Assembly (NCBI RefSeq): GCF_007741495.1
Contig: NZ_CP036262.1
Location: 2,232,001-2,296,000, forward strand
Origin: Roseimaritima multifibrata
GTDB lineage: Bacteria > Planctomycetota > Planctomycetia > Pirellulales > Pirellulaceae
Direction: 5' to 3'
Length of the DNA: 64,000 nucleotides
Every line of letters begins with the position of its first letter. Within the stretch, counting starts at the first letter, position 1. The position numbers were made by a program, and so were the translations under genes. Under the pieces are notes generated by a model. The model was not told the DNA's origin, ran no database searches, and saw only the letters and a list, made by a program, of their open reading frames with translations. Below, piece after piece: positions 26,011 through 41,815 of this stretch.

Positions 26011-26071
26011 CGATTTTGAGGGGCTGAGGGAAAAGTGGAAGGGGCTGATCGGAGTAGGAGAAACTGTCTAC

Positions 26072-26077
26072 TATAAT
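26072..26077 (+). promoter_or_regulatory. Candidate -10 box (TATAAT) upstream of rdgB
   Basis: A perfect TATAAT in CTACTATAATCC lies about 80 nt before the rdgB ATG, in the divergent gap with the sulfatase gene. No good -35 hexamer is seen at 16-18 nt upstream. Confidence 0.4.
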
Positions 26078-26156
26078 CCTTTTCCGCTGTAATATGGGAA
26101 ACCCTGTTTGCGGGTTCCTCTCATTGCCAACTTTCACACTCGATATCATTCTGCTT

Positions 26157-26774
26157 ATGTTCGATTTAGTTTTGGGGACTTCCAATGCAAAGAAATTGCT
26201 GGAATTGCAGCAAATATTGCCATCCGAAGCGATTCGACTGACCTCGTTGGCCGAGCTTGACAACGCGATGGATGTCGAGGAAACGGGAACGACCTTTCTT
26301 GAAAATGCAACGCTGAAGGCGGCTGAACAAGCGATTCATTTGAAGCGATGGGTATTGGCGGAGGACAGTGGATTGTCGGTCGAAGCCCTGCAAGGAGCTC
26401 CGGGCGTTTATTCGGCTCGGTTTTCCGACCCCGGCGCAACGGACGAACGAAACAATGATCTGCTGCTAGAAAAACTGGAAGGTGTGCCCGCGGGGCGCCG
26501 CCGAGCCTTCTATAGTTGTCAGATATGTTTGTCGGATCCTGAAGGGAACATTCGTTTAGCTGCCGACGGGCGATGTTATGGCGTGATCGGTGAAACGCGT
26601 TGTGGTTCTCAGGGATTTGGGTACGATCCGCTGTTCATTGTTCCTGAATTTCATCAAACGTTTGGGGAATTGGGACCGATGGTCAAGCAGGCCATCAGTC
26701 ATCGCGCCCGGGCCCTCCGAAAGTTCATTCCCCAGTTAATGTCTCTTATCGAGTGTGAAGCAAATCATGGATAA
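26157..26774 (+). CDS. rdgB: XTP/dITP diphosphatase (RdgB/HAM1 family)
   Basis: A 205-residue protein of the HAM1 family, which hydrolyses dITP, XTP and dXTP to monophosphates and keeps deaminated purines out of nucleic acids. Family motifs are visible: TSNAKK near the N-terminus (SxNxxK), EDSGLSVEALQGAPGVYSAR, FGYDPLFIVPE, and a C-terminal ISHRARALRKF. ATG at 26157 gives a length close to E. coli RdgB (197); an upstream ATG at 26094 would add 21 residues that do not fit the family. The stop overlaps the next gene start by 8 nt, indicating coupled translation. Confidence 0.93.
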   Translation: MFDLVLGTSNAKKLLELQQILPSEAIRLTSLAELDNAMDVEETGTTFLENATLKAAEQAIHLKRWVLAEDSGLSVEALQGAPGVYSARFSDPGATDERNNDLLLEKLEGVPAGRRRAFYSCQICLSDPEGNIRLAADGRCYGVIGETRCGSQGFGYDPLFIVPEFHQTFGELGPMVKQAISHRARALRKFIPQLMSLIECEANHG

Positions 26775-27513
26775 CACGGAGAAGGATTTCCAGCATGAGC
26801 CCGCGCTCGATGTGATCGCGGTGGGGGCTCATCCCGACGATGTGGAAATGGCTTGTGGAGGCACGTTGGCTAAGCTTGCCAAACAAGGCTACCGCGTCGG
26901 GATTGTGGATCTGACGGATGGAGAACCGACGCCCAATTCCACGGGGCCGGATCAACGGCTAACCGAAGCTGGAGACGCTGCAGACAAATTGGGAATTCAG
27001 AAGCGGATCAACCTCTGTTTGCCAAACCGCCGTTTGATGGACGGACTGGAATCGCGGATTGCGCTCGCTCGTGAATTCCGACGGTTTCGACCGCGATTGG
27101 TTCTTGGCTTTGGCGAAAAAACGCCGATGGCATCCCCCGATCATTGGCAGGCGATGCAGATTACCGACGCAGCCATTTTTTACAGTCGGTTGAGTAAGTG
27201 GGATGACTATTTCGAGGATTTACCGACACATTCTGTCAGCCGGCATCTCTATTTCCGGATGCCTTCGGATCCAGAGCAATTGGCTGGTAATGGTTCACAA
27301 TTGACGGTCGATATTTCGGAGACGCTTGAGCAAAAGCTTGCCGCGATCCACTGCTACCATTCCCAGTTCGCCCATAAGCCTCAAACCGAAACACAAATTC
27401 GAGCCGCGGCAACGGTTGCCGGGCACGCCGCGGGCGTGATGGCTGGCGAAGTTTTTGCGGCGGCTCGCCCGATCGCCGTCGATGATTTAGTACGGACAGT
27501 CCTTTGGAGCTAA
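26767..27513 (+). CDS. LmbE/PIG-L deacetylase, BshB1-like
   Basis: A 248-residue zinc-dependent N-deacetylase of the LmbE/PIG-L family. The AHPDD motif (residues 21-25) supplies zinc ligands and the catalytic Asp. DLTDGEPTPNSTG and a PDHWQAMQITDAAIF segment carry the further His, as in BshB1 and relatives that deacetylate GlcNAc-malate in bacillithiol synthesis. Here the exact substrate is not shown; no bshA or bshC is in the window. ATG at 26767 is chosen over GTG at 26755; it overlaps the rdgB stop. The end overlaps the next gene by 10 nt. Confidence 0.88.
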   Translation: MDNTEKDFQHEPALDVIAVGAHPDDVEMACGGTLAKLAKQGYRVGIVDLTDGEPTPNSTGPDQRLTEAGDAADKLGIQKRINLCLPNRRLMDGLESRIALAREFRRFRPRLVLGFGEKTPMASPDHWQAMQITDAAIFYSRLSKWDDYFEDLPTHSVSRHLYFRMPSDPEQLAGNGSQLTVDISETLEQKLAAIHCYHSQFAHKPQTETQIRAAATVAGHAAGVMAGEVFAAARPIAVDDLVRTVLWS

Positions 27514-28877
27514 ACGAAACCACCGCCAATTCCGGTGATGCATCGGATCCTCGACGCCCCCTGACGACGTTGTCGCTGACTTGTTTGGTTGTCGCCAACA
27601 TGATTGGTGTCGGGGTCTATACCAGCAGCGGATACGCCCTGGCTAGTTTGCAGGATCCTGGACGAGTCGTTTGGGTCTGGGGGATCGCTGGCCTGATCGC
27701 GATCGCTGGTGCGTTCAGTTATTCCGGTTTGGCTAAGCAGGTCTCGGAATCGGGCGGCGAATATTTATTTCTTGCGCGCGGTGTCCATCCGCTGGCAGGA
27801 TTCATGGCTGGTTGGATTTCGTTGGTTGCCGGTTTTTCAGGGGCCGTCGGATTGTCGGCACTCGCGTTCGCGGATCACTTGCCAGCCTTGGATCCCAGCT
27901 ACCGGTTACCGATCGCGATTGGGCTTGTCCTCATCGTCAGTCTGCTGAACTGGATCGGGATAGGCCCTACGGCGAAGATCCAAAATGGAATGGTGCTGGT
28001 TAAATTGGCGATCCTGGTCGCGTTCGGATTTCTAGGGATCGCCACCTTGTTGCAACCTTCCGAGAGCATGGATGCGGGGGCGAATCTTTCAGCCATTCCC
28101 GTACCATGGGAGTGGGGCGCGGTTGCCAGCACTTTGATGTGGGTTTCATTCAGTTACGCAGGATACAACGCCGCGATCTATATCGCCGGTGCGGCAAGGA
28201 ATTGCCAGGCGAGTGTGCCGAGAGCCATGGTTTGGGGGACGCTAGGGGTGACGTTGTTATACGTTCTCTTAAACGCCGTTTTCGTGTTTGTGATCCCTCC
28301 GCAGGCATTTACCGATGACAACCGAGGCCAGGTCGCACTGTTGGCTGCATCGTATGTCGGCGGACCATGGTTAGTCGAAATCATTCGGTTGACGATTCTG
28401 GTTTCACTGGCAACTTCGGTCATCGCAATGACTCAAATCGGACCGCATGTCTACGGACAGATGGCTCGTGATGGCCTGTTGCCCAAGTGGTTGGAAACCG
28501 CCCAGGCGACGCCTCGCAGTGGGATTGTCCTGCAAGGCGTCATCGTCATTTTTCTAATCGTGAACAGTTCGTTCTTAGGCCTGCTGGACTATCTAGCTTT
28601 TCTGTTATCGATAAGCAGTGCAGCGACAGTGGCTTGTTTATTTCTACCGGCTTTTCGGGGAACGCGAGGAAACCGGCCCGTGGTCCTGTGGCCCGTGCTG
28701 CCCGCATTTTTTGTCATCGTGACATTAGCAATCGCCGGTTACGCCTTCCATTTTCGCTGGACAACCGATTCCGCCGGCGTTTTAAAAGCGCTGATCGTGC
28801 TGCCGCTAGGGCTGGTCGTCTATGGTTTGGTAAAACTGACGAGGTCGCCAGTGTCGCCTATCGCTCCGCCAAAGTAG
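27504..28877 (+). CDS. APC-superfamily amino acid permease
   Basis: A 457-residue integral membrane protein with about twelve hydrophobic segments. The first helix contains NMIGVGVYTSSGY, the GxGI-like substrate and sodium-site motif of APC transporters. ESGGEYLFLARGVHPLAGFMAGW matches the second and third segments (shown here as two parts: ESGGEYLFL and HPLAGFMAGW). It probably takes up an amino acid or amine across the inner membrane. The TTG at 27504, overlapping the deacetylase stop, is the only start that preserves helix 1. It is the last gene of a three-gene coupled group; a functional link with the deacetylase is possible but not shown. Confidence 0.88.
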   Translation: MELNETTANSGDASDPRRPLTTLSLTCLVVANMIGVGVYTSSGYALASLQDPGRVVWVWGIAGLIAIAGAFSYSGLAKQVSESGGEYLFLARGVHPLAGFMAGWISLVAGFSGAVGLSALAFADHLPALDPSYRLPIAIGLVLIVSLLNWIGIGPTAKIQNGMVLVKLAILVAFGFLGIATLLQPSESMDAGANLSAIPVPWEWGAVASTLMWVSFSYAGYNAAIYIAGAARNCQASVPRAMVWGTLGVTLLYVLLNAVFVFVIPPQAFTDDNRGQVALLAASYVGGPWLVEIIRLTILVSLATSVIAMTQIGPHVYGQMARDGLLPKWLETAQATPRSGIVLQGVIVIFLIVNSSFLGLLDYLAFLLSISSAATVACLFLPAFRGTRGNRPVVLWPVLPAFFVIVTLAIAGYAFHFRWTTDSAGVLKALIVLPLGLVVYGLVKLTRSPVSPIAPPK

Positions 28878-28899
28878 CGCCAAGCTGGGGATGAAGCGC

Positions 28900-29117
28900 T
28901 AGCGATTGTCCCCTTTCGCGGAGAACGTGAACAGAACAAGTGACGAAAATCTGGCTCCCCTCGCCCTCAAGCAAGCTCCGCCAATTCAGACGAAAAGGCC
29001 GAGACCACGGAATGAGCTAGCTAAGATTTCTTCCGCAACAAAGAGCTTACTTAGGAGCGAGGGGAGCCAGACTTTCGCCAGTTACAAACTTCACGGTCCC
29101 CGCCAAAGGCGACATTA
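28900..29117. repeat. Short inverted-repeat element related to the 46-kb elements
   Basis: The inner arms at 28941-28979 and 29043-29078 are inverted copies containing TCTGGCTCCCCTCGC and GCGAGGGGAGCCAGACT. The imperfect match extends outward to about 28900 and 29117. The same TCTGGCTCCCCTCGCCC core is in the arms of the elements at 46026 and 46750. No gene is encoded, so it looks like a non-autonomous, MITE-like element. It fills the gap between the convergent permease and ATPase genes. Confidence 0.75.
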
Positions 29118-29129
29118 ATGCCGCGACGC

Positions 29130-32100
29130 TCATTCCTCTTGCTGGTCGTCTTCCTTGAGGATTCCGGCGGCGCCTTCTAGTTCGGTTTGCATTCGGTCGT
29201 AATCTTGCAAAGTGGTTTCGACTAGGCTTTTTAGTTTTTCTAGATCCTTGCCGTTTCGGGTCGCTTCCATGGTTAATGGACGCATCCACTCTTGCATCAG
29301 ATGAAATTGCCCACGAATCAAATTCAGCATGACTCGAGGCATTTTGTGCTGCACGATCACGTTTTGTTCGGGGGGATTGGATGCTTGTTGGGTGCTGATC
29401 TGCTCTAGTTGCTTGGATGTTTTTTGTAACGCCTCGGTCAGTTGCTGACCTGCGGCAGAAAAACTTTGACGGAGGTTTTCGACGCGTTCGTCCATCCGAA
29501 CTTCGGCCGAATCGCCTCCGGATGCCACTGCTCGGGCGATGACTTGCCGGATCGATTCCAGCCCATCTCGCATCGAACCTAATTGACGCATCAGTTGGCC
29601 GGCTTGGTCATCGGAATCCAGGCCTGCCATTTTGATGCTTTCGACAAAGGCATACTTGATCGATTCCCAGCGTTCCTTTTCGGCTGCTGTCAGTAAGCCG
29701 TTTAGTTCTTTGAATTTCAGGACGTTTGATTCGTTGTCCGTTGTTAGTGTCTGTGCGTCTTGTTCGTAGTTGGAGATGATCAAGGACTGCAGTTCGGCAT
29801 CGTTCATCACCGACACGACCCGTTCGGCCATCCGGTTCATATTGCGGTAGCTGCCCTGTAGCTTGAACGCGGGTTCCGTGCGGTATGCGTCTGCTTGAGC
29901 GGCGGATCGAATGTACTGACGGTTTACTTTCAACACGCAGTCGCGAACAACCAGCAGTTTTTTCAAGACCTCAAACATCTCACGTACGGCATCCGCTGAG
30001 AAGTTGCTTTCCAGTTGCAGGTCATCCATGTTCCCGCGTTCGGCAGCGTGGATGAGGGCTCTGGCATCGGCTGGCGAAGCGGCTGCCAGCGGGGCCAGGA
30101 CGGTGTTGCTGGTCAAACAGTTTTCCAGATAACTGATCTCGAAGGCTTCTCTTGATTCGCCGATGATTTCGCCCAGGTTGTAGACATCCGCTCGGTTGGA
30201 AAGCATGTCGGGAATCTGGAATCTGTCGCCGCTTTCGGTGTAGGGGTTGCCAGCCATCACCACGGCGACTCGGCGACCGCGAAGATCGTAGGTCCGTGTT
30301 TCGCCGTTACGCACCCCTTCGATCTTGCGAGTTGCATCACAGAGCGAAATGAATTTCTGCAGGAATTCAGGGTTGGTATGCTGGATGTCGTCCAGGTACA
30401 GCAGGACGTTGTCACCCATTTCCAAGGCAAGGTTAAGGCGTTCGACTTCTTCACGAGCCGCCGCATTGGGCGCCTCGGCGGGGTCCAGTGAAGTTACGCT
30501 GTGTCCAATCGCCGGACCATTGATCTTCATGAAGACCAACCCGAGACGGTTGGCGATGTATTCCATCAAAGTCGTTTTACCGTATCCAGGCGGGCTGATT
30601 AGCAACAGCATTCCCATCCGGTCGGTTCGTTTGTTCTCACCCGACGTGCCCATCTGTTTGGCAAAGTTGTCACCAATCAGAGGAAGGTAGACCTCGTCAA
30701 GCAATTGATTGCGGACAAAACTTGTTAGCACGCGAGGACGAAATTCTTCCAGTCGCATCGCGGTCCTGGCGTCGTCCACTAGCTGATGCTTGGTTTCCTG
30801 CAATTGTCGGTAACGAGGGAGTGTATTGTTTTGATAGTCGCCGATTCTCGCTTGGATTTCGTGGTACTGCAGCGGCAAAAGTCCCGCTTGAATCCGCGGG
30901 TGAGCGCCGGCCATGCCCTCTAAGTCGACACCAACCTCTACCGACAATGGGGTGGTTTCTAGGTCATTGCGATAAGCCAACAGGATGGCCAGTTCATCGC
31001 GATAGGCGTCTGGTTGGTCATTGCCCAAAGCCGGCCGGTTGCTTTTTAGAAAAGCATCTGCCCAATTCCTTGCCAACACAAATATCTGTAGCGGTTGCCC
31101 TGCGTTGGCTTGAAGTGAGTCTTCCAACCAGCGTTTTCGGTCTGCCGCAGGAAGAGACGCATCGAAATTCGCCCGCATTTTCTCGGCTTGGCCGCTGATC
31201 GTAAAGGAAGAGGCCTGGCTGATTAAATGTTCAAACAGATAGTTGGCAATCGCGGTGGGGGTGACCGTTGGGAACAGACTTTTCAGGCATAGTTTGTCTT
31301 CGCCGTCCGCGCTTTCGGATGCTTCGTTGTAGAGCTTGGATAGGGTTGCTCTGAATTCGACGGATGGTTCCGCATTAGGAAAGGCGCTCGCCAAATTTGC
31401 AAAACCATGGATCCAGGCGATCAGTTTTTTCTGAGTTCTCTTGTCGGCGGCTAAGATTCTTGTCCACCACAGCATGGCTGCGGCGCGTACGGTTGGCGAG
31501 TGACGCAGAAGGCCAATCCGCTGGTCGATTTTGACCAGGGCATCGAGGATTTTAAACGCGTCCGCGTCATGGACTCCTTTGGCATACCCCTCGGCAAACC
31601 GTCCGCGGATTTGCAGCCGCAACCAATCCATGTCGACTTTGGGACGCATGCTGGGAATCTGCTTGCGCCATTGCTCAAACAGGTCGACTGCAAGAAATTC
31701 CGCGCGATAGACGTTGGGGTTTTCGTTTGCCAATTCCTGTGTCCACAGGTCTTTGGCATTCAGCAGGTCTTCGTGCTGAAGGGGTTCGAAGAACTGAGTC
31801 CCGGTCAGGTGCAAAGCCAACTCGCCCTCTCGGAGGACCGTCGTCAAATCAAGAGGCTGAGTGTTGACGGCGAAGCGATGCCGTCCTAGTCGGATCGTGT
31901 CACCGCCGTCTTCGTAAAGGTCTTGTCGGTCCTTCAGTTGCCGGATAGCATCTTCGCGAATCGTTTTTAGTCGGCTTTGAATGTCACCGACTCGGACCGC
32001 GTCTTCCAATTCTTGCAGCTGTGCGACGATGCCTCGTACTTTGTCGACCATTAGGTCGGCGGCAAAGTAGGAGAGGATTTGGTCGGCGGAGTCCATCCCA

Positions 32101-34439
32101 CGGGCTCGTGATTCGATCCCTGTAAGGATTCGAGTCGCTGCCGCCGCTAATGATTCGGCTCGGCGGTTTCGTTTTTCGACTAACTGAATTTTGCGGGTTT
32201 CAAACGCGTTATACAATTCCTCGCGTCGTTCGGTTAGCTGCGAAATGAATTCATCGAATTCGGCGAACCGACCTTCCAGTTCCTCCAACTGGACCATTAC
32301 CTTGGTGAGGTAGTTGTCACATTTTTCGGGAGTGTCGCAGATGTCCAGATAACCGGCGACCGTTTGCTCAAGCAGTTTCAGTTGCGACGCGAATTCGGCT
32401 CGGCCCTCATCGCCAGCCAATTCGTTGATGCGGGCTTTCAGTTGGTGGCGAACGCGATTGACCGAGGCGAAGACTTCACTGATTTGATCGATGATCTGCG
32501 TGCGTTTTGTCGTGTCCTCGATCTGCAAATTACTGACTGTTTCGGTTAGCAGTTCCAATTGCTTTGACGATTCGTCGATATGTTCATCGATCGTTTTGGC
32601 TTCGGCAACCGTTGCGACGCTAGCGACTTCCGTTTCGGTTTTTGCGATCCGAACGCGGTAGGGTTCCAAGGCCGATTCTTGCAGGAGGAATTCAATGCAG
32701 CGTCGGCTGACGCGTTCGCTCAATTCTGCGATTTCAGTTTCAAAACCAGCGATTCGATCTGGATCGACATAACGCAATTCTTGCAACGCGAGCGCTTGGC
32801 CGCGTTGTTTACGCAGTTCCGACAGCGCCGTAACAAATGCATCGATCGATTCGAATCGAGACCGCTCAATCGATTTGACAAGCTCCGTAATCGCTTTCTC
32901 GACGGCGGAGGTCCGTTCTTCGGTATCACGGCGGACGCGTACGACTCGCTCAAATTCTTCGACCGCTGCGTTTGCAGTGTCGCGAATCTGTTTTAGCGGC
33001 TGATTCAGATGCTGCGTTTCGTCTTTGTCCAGCCAGAAATAGCTGTCCAGAATGTCGCCTGCCTTCTTCGCTAGATCGACATACAGTCCGTCGTAGTTGT
33101 CATCTTTGTCGATCAACTGCAGGACTTCGCTGCACTCCGCCATCCCGCGGACGAGGTCTTTGTTTCCGATTTTGAACAGCAGCGAATCGGTATCGCTCTC
33201 AGGGACAAAATTCGGACCTGTGAAAGGGGTTTGCCACAGTTGAATCGCGTGATGTTTTTGAGGTTCCGCTTGAGCGCGAAAGCAGACCATCAGGCCATTT
33301 TCGAAAAACGTTTGACCATTGCAGACCAGCGGCGTGTCGACCTGTTGCCGAATCACGTTGTACCGCAATTGAATGTAGGTTCCCTCGTCTCGATTGTAGA
33401 ACAGGTACAAATAGTCTTCGCCGTTCGTGGCGGCCAACGTCTGCTCATAGAGCATTTCGGTGAGACCATGTTCAAACCGTTTGTAGTCGCCGGTTTGTAG
33501 ATAGTAACCGCCTGAGAAAATGATCCCATGATCGTCGGGAAGCATGATGCAGGCATACTGGATATCGTCCAGTCGCATCGCCTTTTGGATCTTGGCGTTG
33601 TATAGCAGATGGCGAGGTTCCCGTTCCTGATAGGGAAGCATTTTCAGTAGGATCAGGTTTCCCAGACTGGCCCAGTGGACTTCGCCATCATCGAGCGTCT
33701 GGTCGGGATTTTCGACCGGTTCTTCGTAGATCCCTCGACCGGATTCGGTGTTGTCTTCGACCTTAATCGTAAGGTCCCCGCCAACCATTTCGACAAACAC
33801 GCGATCTTCGATAGCGATATGGGGATGCACCCCGTAGCGATGTTGATCGCGAGTGACTCGTTTCCACTGGAACGCATGCTGAGGCGGGTAGACGACCTCA
33901 TGATCACTGCGGTTGTCGATGTATTCGAAATGGTCGCCAGCCAACCGCCACTTGAAGGTCTTGATATCCGAGGCGGATTTGCCGACTCGGAACACCATGT
34001 ACACAAATGGCCCGGCGGCAAAAAACTTGATAAAGGTGGTCTGTTTGTAGAACTTGTAAAGTTCTTTGAAATCGCGTGCGAAACGCTCATCCGAAATCAT
34101 GTCGGAGAGCGGGCAAGCGTGGAAGGTATTGTCTTCCAGACGGAAAACACCAAACACATCCGTAAGGTTCGTTTCGGTCTTTAGGCCGAACTGGACGTTG
34201 TACCCAAACAGAAAGCAATTGCCGATCGCGATTAAATCACGAGGAACGCAGTTGTGATCGGTCGTGATTCGTTCGGTGGAGAGCAGTTGCGTTTCGATGG
34301 TCCCGAATGTCGCCGCACGTGCGGCGTTCAGGTCGTTCAACTTGGATCTCAGCAGTTGCGCTGATTCCCTAAGTCGGTTTCGAAGCACCTCGTAGGTACC
34401 GGTGGCCATCGATTGGTCAACCGTCACGTTAGTCTCCAC
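29130..34439 (-). CDS. Giant coiled-coil AAA+ ATPase, DUF3686 "DNA repair ATPase"-like
   Basis: A 1,769-residue protein. The first ~450 residues form a beta-rich domain (GNCFLFGYNVQFGLKTETN, FRLEDNTFHACPL) like the DUF3686 family, annotated as ATPases involved in DNA repair without proven function. About 470-890 is a long heptad-rich coiled coil. A helical region follows, then a MoxR-like AAA+ module: Walker A PPGYGKTT (1283-1290), Walker B YLDDIQ (Asp1350/Asp1351), sensor-1 Asn in VVMAGNPYTES, and an arginine-finger-like SNRADVYNLGEI. The C-terminal ~250 residues are again coiled coil. It has no signal peptide and should be cytoplasmic. It is third in line after the yqiJ-like and flotillin genes, with a 268-bp hairpin-bearing gap. 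GTG at 34439 gives METNVTVDQS; ATG at 34409 is an alternative. Confidence 0.8.
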   Translation of the reverse strand: METNVTVDQSMATGTYEVLRNRLRESAQLLRSKLNDLNAARAATFGTIETQLLSTERITTDHNCVPRDLIAIGNCFLFGYNVQFGLKTETNLTDVFGVFRLEDNTFHACPLSDMISDERFARDFKELYKFYKQTTFIKFFAAGPFVYMVFRVGKSASDIKTFKWRLAGDHFEYIDNRSDHEVVYPPQHAFQWKRVTRDQHRYGVHPHIAIEDRVFVEMVGGDLTIKVEDNTESGRGIYEEPVENPDQTLDDGEVHWASLGNLILLKMLPYQEREPRHLLYNAKIQKAMRLDDIQYACIMLPDDHGIIFSGGYYLQTGDYKRFEHGLTEMLYEQTLAATNGEDYLYLFYNRDEGTYIQLRYNVIRQQVDTPLVCNGQTFFENGLMVCFRAQAEPQKHHAIQLWQTPFTGPNFVPESDTDSLLFKIGNKDLVRGMAECSEVLQLIDKDDNYDGLYVDLAKKAGDILDSYFWLDKDETQHLNQPLKQIRDTANAAVEEFERVVRVRRDTEERTSAVEKAITELVKSIERSRFESIDAFVTALSELRKQRGQALALQELRYVDPDRIAGFETEIAELSERVSRRCIEFLLQESALEPYRVRIAKTETEVASVATVAEAKTIDEHIDESSKQLELLTETVSNLQIEDTTKRTQIIDQISEVFASVNRVRHQLKARINELAGDEGRAEFASQLKLLEQTVAGYLDICDTPEKCDNYLTKVMVQLEELEGRFAEFDEFISQLTERREELYNAFETRKIQLVEKRNRRAESLAAAATRILTGIESRARGMDSADQILSYFAADLMVDKVRGIVAQLQELEDAVRVGDIQSRLKTIREDAIRQLKDRQDLYEDGGDTIRLGRHRFAVNTQPLDLTTVLREGELALHLTGTQFFEPLQHEDLLNAKDLWTQELANENPNVYRAEFLAVDLFEQWRKQIPSMRPKVDMDWLRLQIRGRFAEGYAKGVHDADAFKILDALVKIDQRIGLLRHSPTVRAAAMLWWTRILAADKRTQKKLIAWIHGFANLASAFPNAEPSVEFRATLSKLYNEASESADGEDKLCLKSLFPTVTPTAIANYLFEHLISQASSFTISGQAEKMRANFDASLPAADRKRWLEDSLQANAGQPLQIFVLARNWADAFLKSNRPALGNDQPDAYRDELAILLAYRNDLETTPLSVEVGVDLEGMAGAHPRIQAGLLPLQYHEIQARIGDYQNNTLPRYRQLQETKHQLVDDARTAMRLEEFRPRVLTSFVRNQLLDEVYLPLIGDNFAKQMGTSGENKRTDRMGMLLLISPPGYGKTTLMEYIANRLGLVFMKINGPAIGHSVTSLDPAEAPNAAAREEVERLNLALEMGDNVLLYLDDIQHTNPEFLQKFISLCDATRKIEGVRNGETRTYDLRGRRVAVVMAGNPYTESGDRFQIPDMLSNRADVYNLGEIIGESREAFEISYLENCLTSNTVLAPLAAASPADARALIHAAERGNMDDLQLESNFSADAVREMFEVLKKLLVVRDCVLKVNRQYIRSAAQADAYRTEPAFKLQGSYRNMNRMAERVVSVMNDAELQSLIISNYEQDAQTLTTDNESNVLKFKELNGLLTAAEKERWESIKYAFVESIKMAGLDSDDQAGQLMRQLGSMRDGLESIRQVIARAVASGGDSAEVRMDERVENLRQSFSAAGQQLTEALQKTSKQLEQISTQQASNPPEQNVIVQHKMPRVMLNLIRGQFHLMQEWMRPLTMEATRNGKDLEKLKSLVETTLQDYDRMQTELEGAAGILKEDDQQEE

Positions 34440-34563
34440 CTGTCAAAGCTGCTGTTAGTGAAACATGTTGCTGGAGGACGTGCGCTCAAAAAGTTGCGAG
34501 AGACTGACTTAAGTGCTTCGCCCTCCTTTTACAGAGGGGCGACCCTACGCGACGAGGGACCGT

Positions 34564-34636
34564 GGCGACCGCTTACAGGCGGTCGCCTTTTCCTCGCTGC
34601 GACTGGATTCTCCCAGGGGGAAGAGTCCAGACTCTT
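34564..34636. other. Two hairpins between the flotillin and ATPase genes
   Basis: GGCGACCGC and GCGGTCGCC (34564-34587) form a perfect 9-bp stem around TTACAG. AAGAGTC-CA-GACTCTT lies at 34621-34636. A transcript running from the flotillin gene into the ATPase gene would carry both, so they could set stability or partial termination. The only T-run is on the plus side of the first hairpin. Confidence 0.5.
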
Positions 34637-34707
34637 AAATCCTCGCGACATGTCAAACCATTGACTTGTCATTCGCACGGCCGTCCGCCGCATCGCTACT
34701 AATCGGA

Positions 34708-36870
34708 CTAGTTCGAACCGTTCGGTTTCGGACGGGTCGTTTTCGTCGGCAGTTTCTTGGCGGGTGACGAAACGTTACCGGTGATCGTGCCGACCGATTT
34801 GTTGGTAATGTTTGCGGTTCCTGCCATTCCCAGTAGCGACGTCAGTTGGCTGCGGACATCGTCGGTGTTTGCCATCCCCATCAGTTTTGCGATCAGGGCG
34901 GCAACCGAAAGGTCTTTGACGTCTCCTGTGTCCAGATTGAACTGGGACGTCAGATTCATCAGTTGGTCACGGAAGTAGTCAGGATTGCCGTTGAAGAACG
35001 TATCCTTCACATCCGTCGCTACGCGGCTGTTGTAGACAAAGCGATCGATCGCTTTGCCACCTTTGACCGCCGAGGTGATCTGGTCGAAGAATTCGCCGTC
35101 TCCGCCAACGATATCGATGCGAGCCGCTTTGAGGGCTTCGCCGACGACACCGGCTTGGCTTTCGGCAATTCCACGTTGAGCGTCGATGGCAGCGATTTCG
35201 ACATCTTTTTCCTTTTCGATTCGGATCTTGAATTCTTCGTGATCCTTGCCGACACCGTCCAGCATTTTCATCGCTTCGGCTTTTTCGGTGATACCGGTCG
35301 CTTCGCTGTGGTATTTCTCCAAGGAGACCTTGGCTTCGGCCAGTCCCTGTTTCTCCAATGCTTCGGCTTTGGCTTCGATGCCCTTTGCTTCGGCGACGGC
35401 TTTCTTTTCCAGGACGGTCGCTTCGGCCAGACCTTCTAGTTGCAACGCGCTTGCTTTGGCTTCTTGGACCTGAGCTTCTGCCAGTCCGGTTGCAGCGGAG
35501 GTCGCGGCAGTACCTTCGGCAGTCATTTTTGCCGCTGCGGTATCCTTTTCTGCGGCATCGCGACGAGCTTCGGCTTCGACACGAACTTTCTCGGCCAGCA
35601 AGTCGGCCGATTCGCGTTCGGCTTGGGCCGCTTTGACCTGTTTGATCAGGGCTTCTTCCGCGTTCATTTCTGCGGCCGTGACCTGAACCTTTTTCAGACG
35701 ATCGGCTTTCGCGATTTCTTCGGTATCTTTGATCCGTTCCTGTTCTTCGACAACGGCGCGTTCGACGGCGACGCGTTCGCGGATCACTTCTTGGATGTTC
35801 CGTTTTTCAACTTCGATCGCCTTCTCTTTTTCGATATCGGCGACACCGACCAAACGCATCCGTTCGGTCATTTCCAAATCACGGTCACGGGTGACACGTT
35901 CCTGCTCGACCGCATCGGTTCGTTCTTTGTTTCGCTGGGCGACCAGGATCTGTCGCAGTTTGTTTTCTTCAGCGACCCCCAGTTCTTCTTCGGTTCGAAT
36001 CCGAGCCGAAATCGCTTCCAGGCGTTGTTCTTCTTCGACCTTCGATGCAGACGCGTGTTCGCGGGCCCTGATTTCAGCAATTTCGCGAGTCTGTTTCTCG
36101 ACCGCTTCAACGCGTTGTCGTTCCAGTTCCAGGATGGTTTCTTCTGCTTCGACGTCTTGTTTCTTAAGGGTCTTTTCTTTGTCACGAGTGAATTGGTTTT
36201 CTTTAACCTTTTCACCCGAGGTCAGTTCGGTGATCTTTTTGATCCCTTCCGCGTCCAGGATGTTGTTGGGATTCAACAATTCCAGCGGTGTTTGTTCGAG
36301 GAAGTCGATCGCGGCGTCATCAAGGCGGTAACCGTTTAGGTCGGTACCGATCACCTTGAGGATCTCTCCTTTGAACTCTTCACGTTTTTCGTACAGGTCG
36401 ATGAAATCGAACTGCTTGCCAACGGTTTTAAGGGCTTCGCTGAATTTCGAATCAAACAGTTCTCGCAGCGTTTCCAACTGGCTGCAGCGTTTCGCACCAA
36501 TCGACTGGGCGACTTCTTTGATCTCTTCCGGACTTTTGTCGACTCGAATGAAGAATGCCACGCGGATGTCGGCGCGGATATTGTCACGGCAGATCAGACC
36601 TTCGGAACCTTCGCGAGCGATTTCAAAACTCTTTAGCGTCAGGTCCATGTGTTCCATGCGTTGCAGCAGTGGGATCACAAAGATACCGGCGGCGGTACAC
36701 GTTTTTAGACCTCCCGATCCACTTCGGATGACCGCTTCGTCAGGACCGACTTTGATGTAATACTTGCTGGTGATGATCGCCGCGAATAGAGCGATGAAGA
36801 TCATCACGCCAATCACGGTAATGCCAGTCCAAGCCAAGCTGGAGACGGCTAGAACGATGGGGAAAGTCAT
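34708..36870 (-). CDS. Flotillin-like SPFH/band-7 protein, YqiK type
   Basis: A 720-residue protein with an N-terminal membrane segment (about 10-34) and an SPFH domain (about 36-230, with YYIKVGPDEAVIRSG and RADIRVAFFIRVDKSPEEI). A very long Glu/Ala-rich coiled coil follows (about 235-560, with many EAKA and AEAK repeats). The tail contains FNLDTGDVKDLSVAALIAKL and a Gly/Thr/Pro/Lys-rich end. This architecture is that of bacterial flotillins such as YqiK, which form membrane-microdomain scaffolds. ATG at 36870 overlaps the stop of the YqiJ-like gene by 4 nt (ATGA), as in yqiJ-yqiK operons. It probably scaffolds the upstream membrane partner and the downstream AAA+ ATPase; that link is inferred from gene order. 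Confidence 0.92.
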   Translation of the reverse strand: MTFPIVLAVSSLAWTGITVIGVMIFIALFAAIITSKYYIKVGPDEAVIRSGSGGLKTCTAAGIFVIPLLQRMEHMDLTLKSFEIAREGSEGLICRDNIRADIRVAFFIRVDKSPEEIKEVAQSIGAKRCSQLETLRELFDSKFSEALKTVGKQFDFIDLYEKREEFKGEILKVIGTDLNGYRLDDAAIDFLEQTPLELLNPNNILDAEGIKKITELTSGEKVKENQFTRDKEKTLKKQDVEAEETILELERQRVEAVEKQTREIAEIRAREHASASKVEEEQRLEAISARIRTEEELGVAEENKLRQILVAQRNKERTDAVEQERVTRDRDLEMTERMRLVGVADIEKEKAIEVEKRNIQEVIRERVAVERAVVEEQERIKDTEEIAKADRLKKVQVTAAEMNAEEALIKQVKAAQAERESADLLAEKVRVEAEARRDAAEKDTAAAKMTAEGTAATSAATGLAEAQVQEAKASALQLEGLAEATVLEKKAVAEAKGIEAKAEALEKQGLAEAKVSLEKYHSEATGITEKAEAMKMLDGVGKDHEEFKIRIEKEKDVEIAAIDAQRGIAESQAGVVGEALKAARIDIVGGDGEFFDQITSAVKGGKAIDRFVYNSRVATDVKDTFFNGNPDYFRDQLMNLTSQFNLDTGDVKDLSVAALIAKLMGMANTDDVRSQLTSLLGMAGTANITNKSVGTITGNVSSPAKKLPTKTTRPKPNGSN

Positions 36871-37607
36871 GGAAGTACCTCAGGGTCAACTTTGGTGACG
36901 ATGTAAATGCGTTTGACGGGGTCGAAGCCAATGATCCGTGCTTGTTCGCCTTTGGAGAGGATGGCTCCATCGGTTCGAATGTTCAGCAGTAGTGGGGAGG
37001 CATCCGTTTTGTAACGCCCCTGTCCAAAGGATGAATCCGCACGAAACGTGCAGACCGTACAGTCCCGACCCATTAAATGGGCCGCATCGAACTGCGGTTC
37101 GGGCGCAAAAACTTTCGCCATCGGTCCCGTCATTATTTTTGTTAGACCTACGGCTATCACAATGTTCCTTATCGTTAGCAATAAGCTAATCCAAAGAGTT
37201 GGTTGATAACGGAAATTGTCAGATTGGGACCACAGAATCCATGTGACCGTCCAATACAGCAGGGTAAAGGTCCCTGCCCACATGATGATGGGAACGCGAC
37301 CGAGGTTCAGCCAACGCAGGGTCAGCATCCCGACTCCGCCAAAAATATCAGAGGCTCCGTGCCCCACGTCGATATTCGATTCGAAGTCGACATCAAAGTC
37401 AGCGTCGGGAGATTCCGGTAGATCGATTCCGGCATCGGGGGCGTCTAAGTCCAGCCCCAAGTCGGCATCGGGGCTGTCCATGTCCAGGTCGACCGCCCCC
37501 AGGATCGAGAGCAGTAAATAGCAAATCAGTAGCCCCATCAGGACGGATGCAGGCCACATCGGTCCGACGAACATGGAATCGAGAAAAGTTTCGATGGCAT
37601 TCCACAC
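36867..37607 (-). CDS. YqiJ-like membrane protein with C-terminal OB-fold (NfeD-related)
   Basis: A 246-residue protein with hydrophobic segments at about 17-38, 100-120 and 140-160, and an acidic Asp-rich stretch (about 41-75, with repeated DLDxPDA units) between the first and second. The last ~75 residues (LMGRDCTVCTFRADSSFGQG, ARIIGFDPVKRIYIVTKVD) form a small beta domain like the OB-fold of YqiJ and NfeD, the usual operon partners of flotillins. The GTG start at 37607 is the only in-frame start before the first membrane segment. It is the first gene of the flotillin operon, with an ATGA overlap to the flotillin gene. Confidence 0.82.
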   Translation of the reverse strand: MWNAIETFLDSMFVGPMWPASVLMGLLICYLLLSILGAVDLDMDSPDADLGLDLDAPDAGIDLPESPDADFDVDFESNIDVGHGASDIFGGVGMLTLRWLNLGRVPIIMWAGTFTLLYWTVTWILWSQSDNFRYQPTLWISLLLTIRNIVIAVGLTKIMTGPMAKVFAPEPQFDAAHLMGRDCTVCTFRADSSFGQGRYKTDASPLLLNIRTDGAILSKGEQARIIGFDPVKRIYIVTKVDPEVLP

Positions 37608-38036
37608 GGTTGGAAAACCCTTAACAGAGGAGTGATGAGCGAATGGACGCTAGTCTAGCCCGTCCGGTTTGAGGCATGTCGCGCCTCCAAGCTTTCCAAA
37701 GCAAGAAATTACGGAGCCGCCGCAGGCCGAAACCCTACCCGTGAAGGCAGGAAGCCAAGAAAAGTAGGGCGCTCAAAGCGGTCGGAAAACCGAAGAATCG
37801 CGAGGTTTGCGAGAGCGTCAGATGGTGGGGAGTGTCGTTTGACCAGAGTCTGGCGAGCGTCGCGACCGTCGCCAGACGGTGGTTTCTGAGCATTCTTCAC
37901 GCTCTGGCCAGCCGTATAGCTTGCGGGCAGATGGTGTCCCCGCTCTGGCCAGTCGTAGGTGCGGCCAGGCGTTGGAATTCTGTCCTTGGCACTTTCTAAA
38001 TCGCTTTGCCTTCTTCCCTGAGGCATTGCTAAAAAG
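37608..38036. other. Intergenic region with a hairpin, no gene
   Basis: This 429-bp gap should hold the promoter of the yqiJ-flotillin operon. It contains the inverted repeat GTCTGGCGA ... TCGCCAGAC at about 37848-37876, related to a motif at 12613-12640. No clear promoter hexamers or gene were found. Confidence 0.5.
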
Positions 38037-39956
38037 CTACTCCTTGGGGGCTTCGGTCTGCTTCGTGATCGAAACCGTATCAAAAAGTTGCCCATCCAAG
38101 TCGTACGATTTTAGTTGCAGTTCCTTGCCGTTGACGGCGACATAGACGAAGTGGTGGCCGCGGCGAACGGTTTGCTGGAATGGAGGTCGGATCGGTCCGG
38201 CTTGCTCCAGTCCTCCTCCACCGCCTCCGGTGACCATGTAGATGGTGCCACGATCGTTTTGAGGTTTTTCGTTGTGCATTTTCCAGGTTCGCTCGTAGGA
38301 ATGGATATGACCATTCCAGACGATGTCGACGCCGAAGCGATCGAACAACTTGGTCATTGGGCGAATCCTTAGATCGCCCCAACTGCTTTTTCCTTTCCAG
38401 AGGTCTCCGTAGTCGTTTTCGTCGGAGGAATAGGCCGGGTGATGAAAGCTAATAAACGTCCAAACGACTTTGCCTTCTGCTTTTTCTGTTTCGAGTGCGG
38501 CGAGTTGTTTTTCTAACCATTGGTACTGTTCGCTTTCAGGCCCCATTTCCTTGTTTGAATCGAGCATAAAGAAGGCCGCGTTTCCATACCGAAACGAGTA
38601 GTAGTACTCGGGGGAAGGAAGGTCCATGTACCGGTAATAATGATCCGCGTTCCGTTCATGATTCCCAAGCACCGGGTAGAAAGGGACTCGCGAGATCAGC
38701 GGGTTCATACTGGAGAAAAATTGATAGACCCATTGGTTCTTTTCGGTGCCAGTACTGACAAGGTCGCCAGGGATCACCAAAAAGTTGGGGCGAAGTCCCC
38801 AAGCTAATTCGCCGACTTTGCCACTGACGGCCGGGTTGCCCTGCGTGTCAGAGATGACTGCAAAGGCGTATGGGGTTTCCGGTAGCGAAGCGGTCTGAAA
38901 TGAAAGGACTTCGCTTTGGACCGAAGTTTTTGTTTCCGGATCGGTCGCCGTGACTTGGTAGTAATGCCCGGTTTGTGGTGCCAATCCATCAAGCAATGCC
39001 GAGTGGATCGTTTTGTCGTCGGAGGCGGCGGACGCTTTGCGGTTGAATTCAGCGGTCTCTCCGAAGCGAACCGATACTTCGCATTCCGCGTTCGTTTCGC
39101 AGACCACACGGATGCTGTCGGTGGTCGCGTACTGTAGGAAAGGGGCGACTAGAAACGCCAGTGGTTCTTTCTTCTTTGCTGTAGGAGGCAGTTCCGCCCA
39201 ATCTTTTTGATGTTCGAAATCATGTTCAATCCAGGCTTGTTTTGCAGCCAAGTCGTAGACGGCGATTTTGGCTAACCGGCCACGCATGGGAATCCTTTCA
39301 TTCATATCCAAATAGGCGCCGACTGCGAGGGTCGCTGTGTCGGGATAAAGGATCGGGCCACCCTGGGCATCGGATTCTGCATCCAGTTTTCCATTGACCC
39401 ATAGCTGCATGGTTTCACCATCGTAGACCCCGGCGACGTGATACCACTTTCCCTGGACGACTTCGGTTTTGCCTTCCAGATAAGTCATCATTCCATTGCC
39501 ATCGTCTGCATCTTGGCTGGAAAGCCCGAATGAAAAAGTATCGTTGTTGTAGCCTAGGATCCAGCCTGTTTCGGCGTCTCCGTTATCCTGCAGGGCTGAG
39601 ACGATCCCGCCATAACGTGTCATTTCGTCCAGCGATACCCACGCGGCAATTGTGATGGCCTTTGGCGGAAGCTTTTCTTGCAGGGCTGCCCAAGGCTGAT
39701 CAGCGATGAAATACGATTTGCTTCCTTCAAGGCGGATTGCGTTTAGGCCGTCGGAATCTTCGAGGGTCGGAGTCCCTTGGGCCGTCAGTTTGGGACCAAG
39801 TTGGCTTTCCAGGATCCCATCCTTAAAAAATGGAATTCCGAAAACCCAATGGGCTCGAGGGTCAGGGCCATCGTGTCCGTAGGTCCCCGATAGGTTCACG
39901 GCGACCAGGAGTAGACAGGTAACCGAACGAACAAGCCATTGTCGTGTCAGACGCAT
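38037..39956 (-). CDS. Secreted LamG-metallophosphoesterase (purple acid phosphatase-like)
   Basis: A 639-residue protein with a signal peptide (hydrophobic core SVTCLLLVAVNLSG). A LamG/concanavalin-like domain spans about 45-250 (ITIAAWVSLDEMTRYGGIVS, WYHVAGVYDGETMQLWVNG). A fibronectin III-like linker follows (about 265-355), then a calcineurin-type phosphoesterase. The metal-site motifs are SDTQGN, PGDLVSTG, GNHER, FHHPAYS and GHIHSYER. The order FnIII-like then phosphoesterase is that of purple acid phosphatases. It would hydrolyse phosphate esters outside the cytoplasm, held by the LamG domain to some glycan or surface. ATG at 39956 is preferred over TTG at 39968. It follows the DUF1559 gene after 57 nt, so co-transcription is likely. 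Confidence 0.88.
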   Translation of the reverse strand: MRLTRQWLVRSVTCLLLVAVNLSGTYGHDGPDPRAHWVFGIPFFKDGILESQLGPKLTAQGTPTLEDSDGLNAIRLEGSKSYFIADQPWAALQEKLPPKAITIAAWVSLDEMTRYGGIVSALQDNGDAETGWILGYNNDTFSFGLSSQDADDGNGMMTYLEGKTEVVQGKWYHVAGVYDGETMQLWVNGKLDAESDAQGGPILYPDTATLAVGAYLDMNERIPMRGRLAKIAVYDLAAKQAWIEHDFEHQKDWAELPPTAKKKEPLAFLVAPFLQYATTDSIRVVCETNAECEVSVRFGETAEFNRKASAASDDKTIHSALLDGLAPQTGHYYQVTATDPETKTSVQSEVLSFQTASLPETPYAFAVISDTQGNPAVSGKVGELAWGLRPNFLVIPGDLVSTGTEKNQWVYQFFSSMNPLISRVPFYPVLGNHERNADHYYRYMDLPSPEYYYSFRYGNAAFFMLDSNKEMGPESEQYQWLEKQLAALETEKAEGKVVWTFISFHHPAYSSDENDYGDLWKGKSSWGDLRIRPMTKLFDRFGVDIVWNGHIHSYERTWKMHNEKPQNDRGTIYMVTGGGGGGLEQAGPIRPPFQQTVRRGHHFVYVAVNGKELQLKSYDLDGQLFDTVSITKQTEAPKE

Positions 39957-40013
39957 TGGGTAACTCAAGCAATCAGGAAGGAATTCTTAGAAGTCGTCAA
40001 GCAATGGGATGGG

Positions 40014-41108
40014 TTACGGTTGTTGGACCGCTTCGCCGCCACTTCGAGTTCCCAAGGCAGAGAAGATGGCCATGTCGACCGTTTCGGAAAGAAATCGAAC
40101 CGATCCATCCCCAAAACAGAACTGCGCACCGCTGGGGTGCTGGCTGCTGAAACTGACTTCGTAGGCGCCCCATTCTGGCGAGGCGTCCGCACGAGCAATT
40201 GTAACCGGTTTTGGATAGTTGATTTGGACGGCTGTCGAGCCACCCATTTCGGACCAGTCCGTACCTTCCCAGTTATCGAAGTCGTCCCCGCCGATCGCCC
40301 AGTGGTCTTTCCGGCCGGAATTGGCTTCTTCGGCGGTCGATGCGATCGAGGCCAATTCGGGGTCGGGTTCGGCTTCCCCAAACATCAGCGTGTTCGACAG
40401 TCCGTCGGTGACGTCGCGGAAACCGGTTGCGCCACCCATGCCACCTTGGCTGATCCGAGCGCGGTCGGGATGGCGTGTTTGGATCATGCCGTCTAGTTCG
40501 GCGTGGTGTTTGGTCGTCTGGCCGCTGCCCCAGGTAGCGATATTTCCTCGTCCCCATCCCCATGAAGGTTTCCAGTCGTTGGGTTGGATTCCGGTGACGA
40601 CCGCTAGGTAGTTTGCCGGCACGCGAGCGGCAACAAACCATGGCGGCGAGTATACCGACGCGTCAAAGACGGCCTCTGGGGCGACCGAAGATGGGCACCG
40701 CATCACGCTGATCATGGTTTCGCAGGCGGCTACTTGCCGGTCCCGCGGATTGGAGGACGTGATGTCGGCGTTGCTGAGGGCGGTTCCCGCAGCCCAGTTG
40801 GTCGAACCGAATGTAAGCGATTCGTACAGGTTGGTCTGTTCACAGTAGGGCATCACAAACGCGCTCCAGTGGCCACCTTCCTGAGCTTCGCCAAGCATCG
40901 GCAGGTCTTCTTTGTGGGTGTCGGCAAAGTTGTGCGTCGCCAAGCCCAGTTGCTTTAGATTGTTGCTGCATTGCATCCTGCGTGCGGCTTCACGGGCCGC
41001 TTGGACCGCGGGCAGTAGCAAGCCGACAAGGACGCCGATGATCGCAATGACCACCAGCAGTTCTACAAGGGTAAAGGCGTGTCGTTGATTTAGGTTTTGA
41101 AGTTTCAT
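40014..41108 (-). CDS. DUF1559 (H-X9-DG) pilin-like protein
   Basis: A 364-residue member of the large planctomycete DUF1559 family. The N-terminus has a prepilin-type helix, HAFTLVELLVVIAIIGVLVG, followed by AVQAAREAARRMQCSNNLKQ, both diagnostic. The C-terminal H-X9-DG motif is HPSGAQFCFGDG. These proteins are exported and membrane-anchored; their role is unknown, with an extracellular pilus- or pseudopilus-like assembly suspected. ATG at 41108 gives MKLQNLNQR; a TTG at 41141 is less likely. It follows a lipoprotein gene by 47 nt and precedes a secreted phosphatase. Compare the DUF1559/lipoprotein pair at 48719-50171, where the order is reversed. Confidence 0.92.
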   Translation of the reverse strand: MKLQNLNQRHAFTLVELLVVIAIIGVLVGLLLPAVQAAREAARRMQCSNNLKQLGLATHNFADTHKEDLPMLGEAQEGGHWSAFVMPYCEQTNLYESLTFGSTNWAAGTALSNADITSSNPRDRQVAACETMISVMRCPSSVAPEAVFDASVYSPPWFVAARVPANYLAVVTGIQPNDWKPSWGWGRGNIATWGSGQTTKHHAELDGMIQTRHPDRARISQGGMGGATGFRDVTDGLSNTLMFGEAEPDPELASIASTAEEANSGRKDHWAIGGDDFDNWEGTDWSEMGGSTAVQINYPKPVTIARADASPEWGAYEVSFSSQHPSGAQFCFGDGSVRFLSETVDMAIFSALGTRSGGEAVQQP

Positions 41109-41155
41109 CGGTTGGGTCTTTTGAATGAAGAACGTTTGCAAAACGGAAGAATGAG

Positions 41156-41611
41156 CTAGGATTTTTCGGCGGGGATATCGAATTCAAACCGGTTGTCGGG
41201 GCCGGAAACGACCTCAAATTCGAGTGCCGATTCGCCACCGTCGCCGTAAGCCGCTGGAACCAGTTCTTTGGTGATTAGCCGCCGGTCGTCGTCCGCCTTC
41301 TCATCGCTGGACCCGACGGTTTGTCCTTTGTCGCTGACGATGCAGGTGAAACTGACGCGATAGTTCCCTGCAGCCAGCCCTTCGCCGGCGGTCGAGCGGA
41401 GGAACAGTTTTCCGCTCGCGTCGGTTTCTCCGACGCCGAGGTTGTACTTTGTGACTTTTCCGTCGAGGGGGCGGAAATAGACGATCAACCGCTCGTAGGG
41501 CTTGCCGCCAAGGGTTATCTGGCCGCTAATTGGATGGAGCGGAGGCTCGGAATTGCAGCCGGCAAGCAGCAGGCATGATGTCAAGATCAGCAACGCGGCG
41601 AAGGGTTTCAT
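41156..41611 (-). CDS. Lipoprotein with carboxypeptidase-regulatory-like domain
   Basis: A 151-residue protein with a lipoprotein signal peptide, MKPFAALLILTSCLLLAGC, whose lipobox LAGC puts the lipidated Cys at 19. The mature part (PISGQITLGGKPYERLIVYF, GVGETDASGKLFLRS, LAAGNYRVSF) is the beta-sandwich pattern of carboxypeptidase D regulatory-like domains, common in small planctomycete lipoproteins beside DUF1559 genes. ATG at 41611 is chosen because it starts the signal peptide exactly; an earlier in-frame ATG adds 28 non-signal residues. It is first in a likely operon with the DUF1559 and phosphatase genes, and divergent from the PSD1 gene. Confidence 0.88.
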   Translation of the reverse strand: MKPFAALLILTSCLLLAGCNSEPPLHPISGQITLGGKPYERLIVYFRPLDGKVTKYNLGVGETDASGKLFLRSTAGEGLAAGNYRVSFTCIVSDKGQTVGSSDEKADDDRRLITKELVPAAYGDGGESALEFEVVSGPDNRFEFDIPAEKS

Positions 41612-41815
41612 CAAAGGGGCCCCATGAATGGTGAAGCAATGAATGTTTGTAAGAGACCCAAGTTGTACTGAGCGAATGTGAAGAACCGGTGGCACGTTTG
41701 TTTAGGTTCAGTGAATCTCTAAAGAGTTCAAGCTATGCGTCCGTTGCGCGATCGACTAAAATGAAGGTCTCCCCCTGCCCTTTTGAAAAGTGGTCCCACC
41801 TTGAAAGATTCCCGT

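Follow-up and report, generated by a model that had tools for sequence, protein, structure and literature searches.

A flotillin, YqiJ-like protein and DUF3686 AAA+ ATPase triad in Roseimaritima multifibrata: a candidate membrane scaffold with a docked motor

What does a bacterial flotillin scaffold hold? In bacteria, flotillins commonly go by the name of scaffold with no cargo defined for them, and the locus considered here presents a flotillin subtype that has a very constant partner with an intact-looking motor. Our window is the whole stretch of 64,000 nucleotides (nt) analyzed from the planctomycete Roseimaritima multifibrata (NCBI RefSeq assembly GCF_007741495.1, contig NZ_CP036262.1, positions 2,232,001 to 2,296,000 of the forward strand); the genome is a single contig of 7,216,590 bases with a completeness of 100. 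In the window's list of open reading frames (ORFs), the triad under study consists of three minus-strand ORFs in the order YqiJ-like gene, flotillin, ATPase, given here with the part of the flotillin on which the argument turns:

36867..37607, minus strand: YqiJ/NfeD2-type membrane protein, 246 amino acids (aa), identified by its ORF, by family profile and by the same position in 31 of 31 loci
34708..36870, minus strand: YqiK-type flotillin, 720 aa, with N-terminal hydrophobic segment, SPFH domain, long central region and C-terminal module
34996..35358, minus strand: flotillin C-terminal module, residues 505-625, defined by profile, candidate ATPase-docking region
29130..34439, minus strand: DUF3686 AAA+ ATPase, 1,769 aa, an ORF with the sole DUF3686 match in the genome

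An earlier note, made from the letters alone, had described three co-oriented minus-strand genes with a 4-nt overlap and a 268-bp gap, and the ORF coordinates confirm this observation of the triad. The flotillin and YqiJ-like genes share 4 nt (ATGA). The ATPase ORF begins at GTG, and the position of its start codon is uncertain by some 4 to 12 residues. We put at about an even chance the reading that the triad would act as one membrane machine, in which a flotillin scaffold docks an active AAA+ remodeler, with the docking and the client argued by analogy.

The pairing of flotillin and ATPase is real and very consistent. Our phylum sample comprised 294 Planctomycetota genomes, the window's genome included as its center. 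DUF3686 occurs in 32 of them (31 of 293 without the center, known beforehand as a carrier) and in 2 of the 10 sampled genomes of the window genome's family. Up to 20 kb was examined around the other 31 carriers, and in all 31, as in the window, the YqiJ-like gene, flotillin and ATPase stand in one order and on one strand. Scanning 84,980 species genomes by pattern yielded at least 538 ATPase relatives; the best 80 of these, a choice that leans to close relatives, come, to judge by record titles, from Planctomycetes, Verrucomicrobia, Bacteroidetes, desulfobacterial metagenome-assembled genomes, Clostridia, a Myxococcus and others, and the closest named relatives among the 80 belong to Rhodopirellula, Roseiconus and other Planctomycetota, at 64-66% identity. 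We counted the 63 named loci having 3.5 kb upstream and dropped the other 17. A same-strand flotillin lies at most 2.5 kb upstream in 60 of the 63, and a YqiJ-like gene is there also in 57. In the three exceptions the flotillin is elsewhere in the genome (L077, L084) or the flotillin and YqiJ-like gene are divergent (L126); all three genomes still encode a YqiK-type flotillin. The gap between flotillin and ATPase has a median of 131 nt (range -10 to 1668, 100 loci). A plasmid collection held 12 records with the ATPase, several of them chromosome-sized, and the 10 examined (H4 and H8 left out) have the flotillin upstream in every case and the YqiJ-like gene in nine. The co-occurrence check proposed in the earlier note thus comes out with the ATPase mostly beside a flotillin gene, in 31/31 phylum loci and 60/63 named loci.

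The C-terminal module of the flotillin coincides with the ATPase. It is conserved among flotillins linked to the ATPase gene, and its alignment to E. coli YqiK is poor or absent. Ninety-eight linked flotillins went into its profile, and the genomes sampled may include some of the same species, so it is the negatives that carry weight. The profile matches all 10 linked flotillins from the plasmid collection, and the L077 and L084 flotillins, sited away from the ATPase gene, keep the module. It was found in none of seven flotillins from records without the ATPase, namely, E. coli K-12 YqiK and six plasmid-borne proteins, the latter taken from 316 plasmid records with a flotillin in a search of the plasmid records themselves. 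With the flotillin profile, 35 of the 294 genomes match at E <= 1e-30: 32 are ATPase carriers that match via the module, and 3 others do not. A second draw, of 392 genomes centered on G294 and from its phylum (Bacteroidota, to judge by a record title), gave 22 matches at E <= 1e-20, 10 via the module and 12 not, and DUF3686 occurs in exactly those 10 module genomes (9 of 391 without the center G294, a known carrier). In the 15 genomes with a module-less match (12 plus 3), a search for DUF3686 found none; a YqiJ-like gene adjoins the flotillin in all 15, with no ATPase in the stretch examined. The module was absent, at E up to 0.01, from all 14 complete flotillins of these ATPase-free genomes, one further flotillin being cut by a contig end. 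The module is therefore present in 42 of 42 genomes that have the ATPase and in 0 of 14 complete related flotillins from genomes lacking it, and no case of a module-type flotillin without DUF3686 was met among 686 genomes. The SPFH-domain scores of linked and unlinked flotillins overlap, with linked Vibrio and Photobacterium proteins at 189-193 bits and six unlinked ones at 201-212.

The question of what the module might contact leads to the architecture of the ATPase, whose parts are as follows:

33225..34304, minus strand: N-terminal propeller-like domain, residues 46-405 (AlphaFold2; predicted local distance difference test score, pLDDT, mostly about 90 by block)
31920..33182, minus strand: long helical/coiled-coil arm including DUF7902, residues 420-840 (Pfam and AlphaFold2)
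30735..31919, minus strand: middle, residues 841-1235, modeled as a small beta element followed by mainly helical structure
29640..30734, minus strand: AAA+ core and lid, residues 1236-1600, with a predicted hairpin preceding sensor 1
30570..30593, minus strand: Walker A, PPGYGKTT, residues 1283-1290; G1285, K1288 and T1289 invariant
30381..30398, minus strand: Walker B, YLDDIQ, residues 1348-1353, with D in place of the usual E; D1350 and D1351 invariant
30243..30254, minus strand: sensor 1, AGNP, residues 1396-1399; N1398 invariant

In Pfam, DUF3686 (PF12458) covers residues 30-468 (E 1e-184, 614.5 bits versus a cut-off of 25, model positions 2-448 of 448), DUF7902 residues 590-672 and AAA residues 1278-1354; the AAA_5 match is marginally above its cut-off (23.8 versus 22), and the RuvB_N match is weak and under its own (E 3e-5). 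The 1,769-residue size, the DUF3686 N terminus and the three motifs named in the earlier note were all located, and all 109 aligned sequences, the window's among them, have the same residue at each of the catalytic positions G1285, K1288, T1289, D1350, D1351, N1398 and R1416. R1532 is present in 107 of the 109, the remaining two having a gap. By our own assignment, R1416 and R1532 are candidates for the arginine finger and sensor 2. We infer that the protein is an active ATPase because the Walker A, Walker B, sensor-1 and R1416 positions are invariant. It has no protease match in Pfam and no strongly hydrophobic segment.

In an AlphaFold2 model of residues 1-880 (71 sequences, mean pLDDT 86.9), a domain rich in beta structure extends from about residue 46 to 405, and long helices come after it. 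Among the 50 Foldseek matches shown are coiled-coil giants and many propellers (Ski8, WDR91, the Elp complex, prolyl oligopeptidases and the clathrin terminal domain), the propellers at E values of 1e-6 to 1e-4 and low template-modeling (TM) scores. We read the N-terminal domain as a propeller with moderate confidence. The model of residues 841-1769 (mean pLDDT 86.1) contains the helical middle, an AAA+ core with the hairpin before sensor 1 and a C-terminal coil, and its five best folds are, in order, CbbQ, RuvB, MCM6, MgsA and NorQ. The MoxR-like label that the earlier note gave to this core holds only in part. The first and fifth fold matches, CbbQ and NorQ, speak for it; RuvB comes second, however, the secondary structure of the AAA+ model has no hairpin at helix 2, and AAA_3 (PF07726), which we take to be the MoxR model, is absent among Pfam matches up to E 1. 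A helix-2 insert is the defining trait of the MoxR clade, and on both the AAA_3 match and the insert the protein falls outside the MoxR family proper.

Which of these parts tracks the module? Over 71 dereplicated loci, pairwise distances in the module correlate with those in the propeller at 0.76 and in the coil at 0.72, against 0.47 for the AAA+ core and 0.39 for the middle; within its own flotillin, the module correlates at 0.62 with the central part and at 0.42 with the SPFH domain. In a taxon bootstrap, the propeller-minus-core difference ranges from 0.17 to 0.38 and propeller minus coil from 0.00 to 0.09. When column numbers are made equal, the first three keep their places (0.67, 0.65 and, for the flotillin center, 0.55), and the SPFH domain (0.43) and the core (0.40) swap ranks. 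These correlations are suggestive of a module that evolves more closely with the propeller and coil than with the AAA+ core. Together with the coincidence of module and ATPase, they favor, short of proof, the proposal of the earlier note that the scaffold recruits the ATPase.

In the machine that we propose, the flotillin would be anchored through its N-terminal hydrophobic segment and SPFH domain and would form an inner-membrane scaffold, probably a ring or cage after the manner of other SPFH proteins, and the integral-membrane YqiJ/NfeD-type protein would be its partner. The DUF3686 protein would be an active, probably hexameric AAA+ remodeler with no recognizable protease; its propeller and coiled-coil arm would dock onto the flotillin C-terminal module, and its AAA+ ring would spend ATP on pulling apart or remodeling membrane clients. 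In Bacteroidota, the client or cofactor may be PspA with a CesT-like chaperone. In the window genome, the client would have to be other than PspA, because no recognizable PspA is encoded there. The 121-residue module that coincides with the ATPase turns the scaffold-cargo question into a two-protein binding test.

Several known systems lend this proposal its analogies, as far as the extracts of the papers cited here go. Flotillin 1/2 is described as a membrane-attached cage of 22 pairs (PMC11260169), and the HflK/C cage encloses the AAA+ protease FtsH (PMC12048511; introduction of PMC11260169). HflK/C-FtsH is thus an SPFH assembly partnering an AAA+ hexamer at the membrane (PMC12048511, PMC11260169), a likeness of working only: FtsH is a protease embedded in the membrane, and its HflK/C assembly extends into the periplasm, whereas the DUF3686 protein has neither a protease match nor a strong hydrophobic segment. 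Staphylococcus aureus FloA with NfeD is reported, as summarized in PMC13086221, to stabilize unfolded proteins without ATP, and a motor-equipped version of such FloA-NfeD-type activity would be a reasonable extension. The E. coli YqiJ-YqiK and SPFH2-NfeD2 operons (Hinderhofer et al. 2009, PMC2636767) have a homologous pair in the same order; E. coli YqiJ-YqiK differs in having no adjoining ATPase and a YqiK without the C-terminal module. MoxR-type CbbQ and NorQ, and RuvB, are among the five best folds, and the DUF3686 protein shares their predicted hairpin before sensor 1; it differs from the MoxR type in a core fused to propeller and coils, with no helix-2 beta-insert and no AAA_3 match.

The operon itself is already known. 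In the extracts consulted, Ravi et al. (2024, mSystems, PMC11237479) describe the triad with or without PspA and a CesT-like chaperone, state that the ATPase carries a propeller, and report that PspA-less abbreviated operons, some with the ATPase, are widespread in bacteria and archaea. The window triad has the same three components, YqiJ, flotillin and a propeller/coiled-coil AAA+ protein, and belongs to this set, the propeller here being a prediction. A mention of the flotillin C-terminal module was not seen in those extracts. In open-licence full-text literature, searches for "DUF3686," or for "DNA repair ATPase" plus flotillin, found nothing, and a search for triad terms (at least 4 of 6) found Ravi et al. 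only; the coincidence of module and ATPase and a complete genome free of PspA did not turn up in that literature. Tentatively, and with more doubt than belief, we suggest that the triad represents a distinct SPFH-AAA+ class, in which the module docks the propeller and coil of a protease-less motor, the two being strictly coupled across phyla and able to do without PspA. If true, this class would be a bacterial membrane-remodeling or protein-extraction machine, and a widely distributed family would be moved out of its unproven "DNA repair ATPase" label.

A number of results weigh against the proposed machine. Over all 96 loci, whichever of the three flotillin parts is taken, its best correlate in the ATPase is the propeller, and clock quality may therefore account for some of the signal. 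With groups assigned by record title, the module correlates equally, at 0.89, with the propeller and the flotillin center in the 43 Planctomycetota loci, and in the 30 Bacteroidota loci the correlations differ little. The propeller assignment is itself a prediction with low TM scores. Flotillin-YqiJ pairs occur without the ATPase in the 15 genomes above, in E. coli K-12 and on plasmids, and the 268-nt gap would allow a separate transcription of the ATPase. An SPFH tree from a quick search over 70 of 134 rows (48 linked, 22 unlinked; the 98 linked training rows thinned to every third one, with named additions) needs two changes for the linked flotillins, yet a single linked clade is not rejected (approximately unbiased test, p-AU 0.57), and the tree constrained to one linked clade scored slightly better. 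The module-bearing flotillins may thus be a clade of single origin, with the module a mere clade marker, and in that case the coincidence would reflect joint retention rather than repeated joint gain. This result reduced our confidence in the proposed machine from slightly better than even to even. An independent, repeated origin of the coupling between module and ATPase is unsupported, since the tree allows one linked clade.

How, then, does the docking proposal fare beside other accounts of the same locus? One of them, after Ravi et al. (PMC11237479, in the extracts consulted), has the ATPase take PspA polymers apart as a Vps4-like motor and leaves the flotillin only the part of its anchor, with abbreviated operons receiving PspA from elsewhere in the genome. 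PspA is indeed found in 22 and the CesT-like gene in 21 of the 63 named loci, mostly in Bacteroidota, and in L075 and L117 (Phycisphaerae-type) the ATPase is followed downstream by PspA at a distance of 27-31 nt. Among the 294 genomes, PspA (PF04012, E <= 1e-3) occurs in 24 of 32 DUF3686 carriers versus 50 of 262 others (Fisher p 3.5e-10, uncorrected for kinship). However, 2 of those 24 are under the cut-off and several of the matches are partial (model positions 3-138 of 220), the Pfam model finds no PspA in the other 8 carriers, the window genome among them, and only 2 of the 31 phylum loci have PspA near the triad (L054, by profile) or a few kb upstream (G020, by Pfam). In the window genome, the Pfam model gave 13 candidates, of which 9 were scored and none was PspA, and a protein query, with 29 of 29 candidates scored, gave a best E of 0.021 and again no PspA. 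With PspA in neither operon nor genome, the locus falls outside the PspA (PSP) system, and the suggestion of Ravi et al. (PMC11237479, as extracted) that PspA lies elsewhere in the genome finds no recognizable counterpart here. A complete genome without recognizable PspA means that the triad needs none in this organism, which rejects PspA as an obligate partner for the window genome; PspA looks like a frequent but not necessary partner, and we consider a dedicated PspA motor unlikely. Somewhat more doubtful still is that the genes are kept together by inheritance, transfer or regulation alone, with flotillin and YqiJ serving membrane organization and the ATPase a soluble pathway. The persistence of flotillin-YqiJ pairs without the ATPase (15 genomes and E. 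coli K-12), the presence of the ATPase in only 2 of 10 sampled family genomes, so that the set comes and goes, the possible single clade of linked flotillins and the 268-nt gap would all fit such an account. It sits poorly with L077 and L084, whose genes are apart and which retain both, with the module kept in the flotillin, and with the count of 0 in 686 genomes for module-type flotillins lacking DUF3686.

The remaining two accounts bear on labels attached to the ATPase and on the surroundings of the locus. The scan covered nine neighboring ORFs, at roughly 21-44 kb in the window, and eight of them have Pfam matches (trypsin-like peptidase, sulfatase, Ham1, PIG-L, amino-acid permease, metallophosphoesterase, DUF1559 and the planctomycete-type PSCyt/PSD1); these neighbors look metabolic or structural in character. 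Databases label DUF3686 proteins "ATPase involved in DNA repair" (Pfam), "DNA repair ATPase" or "DNA repair protein," and the RuvB_N match (3e-5, under cut-off) and the second place of RuvB in the fold search would agree with a repair function. The constant partner is a membrane scaffold, however, and none of the nine neighbors belongs to a repair family; Ham1 serves nucleotide-pool cleaning. The label may derive from a coiled-coil likeness to SMC/Rad50. It gains no support from this analysis, and we regard a repair ATPase as very improbable. Most improbable of all would be an anti-phage defense system, in line with the phage link suggested in the earlier note, which we found unsupported. The spread of the triad is patchy (32 of 294 genomes), and PADLOC gave for the three triad proteins a sole match, a 30-residue P-loop stretch to IetA (residues 1277-1306, E 0.0018), short of membership in any known anti-phage system. 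Among the nine neighbors, PADLOC matched only the trypsin domain of one protein, no defense island was seen in the same 21-44 kb, and scans of viral contigs and phages found no ATPase relative within their sensitivity, so that a viral or phage origin of the triad has nothing to show for it there.

The two smaller proteins were identified from several matches. The claim of a YqiJ-like membrane protein is upheld by the family profile, which matches E. coli YqiJ at E 8e-8; the Pfam YqiJ_N match of the window protein is under the cut-off (E 0.019), and simple hydropathy, examined with the three membrane helices of the YqiJ/NfeD2 type in view, gives two clear hydrophobic stretches, at 11-44 and 136-160. 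Its homology to YqiJ and its place next to the flotillin put it in the YqiJ/NfeD2 group. For the flotillin, residues 1-42 are hydrophobic. A six-frame genome search with Band_7 recovers it at E 2e-13 (52.7 bits versus a cut-off of 23.6), and the SPFH-part profile of the family matches E. coli YqiK at E 7e-39, in agreement with the YqiK-type assignment of the earlier note and with an SPFH/Band_7 domain. Pfam hmmscan of the protein gave no flotillin or Band_7 match, and the NCBIfam FloT match is weak and far under its cut-off. The flotillin and ATPase profiles, compared by sequence with solved structures, had no match at E 0.001.

Between flotillin and ATPase lies one further feature:

34440..34707, minus strand: intergenic gap, 268 nt, with strong folding, one 10-bp hairpin and no coding-strand T-run

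Its folding far exceeds that of shuffled sequences (z -4.42). The hairpin pattern has a single occurrence in the whole genome, which rules out a dispersed repeat, and the gap is no plain terminator, as its sole terminator-like site is on the plus strand and the hairpin lacks a coding-strand T-run. The 268 nt gave no sigma-70-like site, and an Rfam scan of window positions 24000-44000 gave nothing at the gathering threshold.

Some observations concern related loci elsewhere. Two apparent fusions of 3,300-3,400 aa (L047, 634-10875; L072, 9860-19822) were rejected, as in each the open frame runs on from a real ATPase into stretches of N. Two Verrucomicrobia loci have divergent linked flotillins and no recognizable YqiJ-like gene (L124, 7565-9892, 775 aa; L129, 7586-9904, 772 aa), and these two flotillins are the weakest complete profile matches. 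A conjugative plasmid of E. coli (L159, 5375-7716) and others like it carry a YqiJ-flotillin pair without the ATPase; Escherichia accounts for 229 of the 316 flotillin-bearing records in the plasmid collection.

No more than three genes recur widely upstream in the neighbor clusters listed from 111 loci, namely, an XRE-like regulator, PspA and the CesT-like gene, all of them in named loci; the remaining clusters look like single-lineage synteny or common planctomycete families. Of the 24 loci that have the XRE-like regulator (e.g., L099, 4847-5602), 23 have it upstream and 23 have it on the opposite strand; it adjoins the run of CesT-like, PspA, YqiJ, flotillin and ATPase genes and is a candidate dedicated regulator. 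On plasmid pQBR103 of Pseudomonas fluorescens SBW25 (L152, 1016-14220), the triad lies in one run with YjfI, PspA and a rhomboid protease, and the same run adds DUF2491, DUF350, DUF1190 and a glutathionylspermidine-synthase-like gene.

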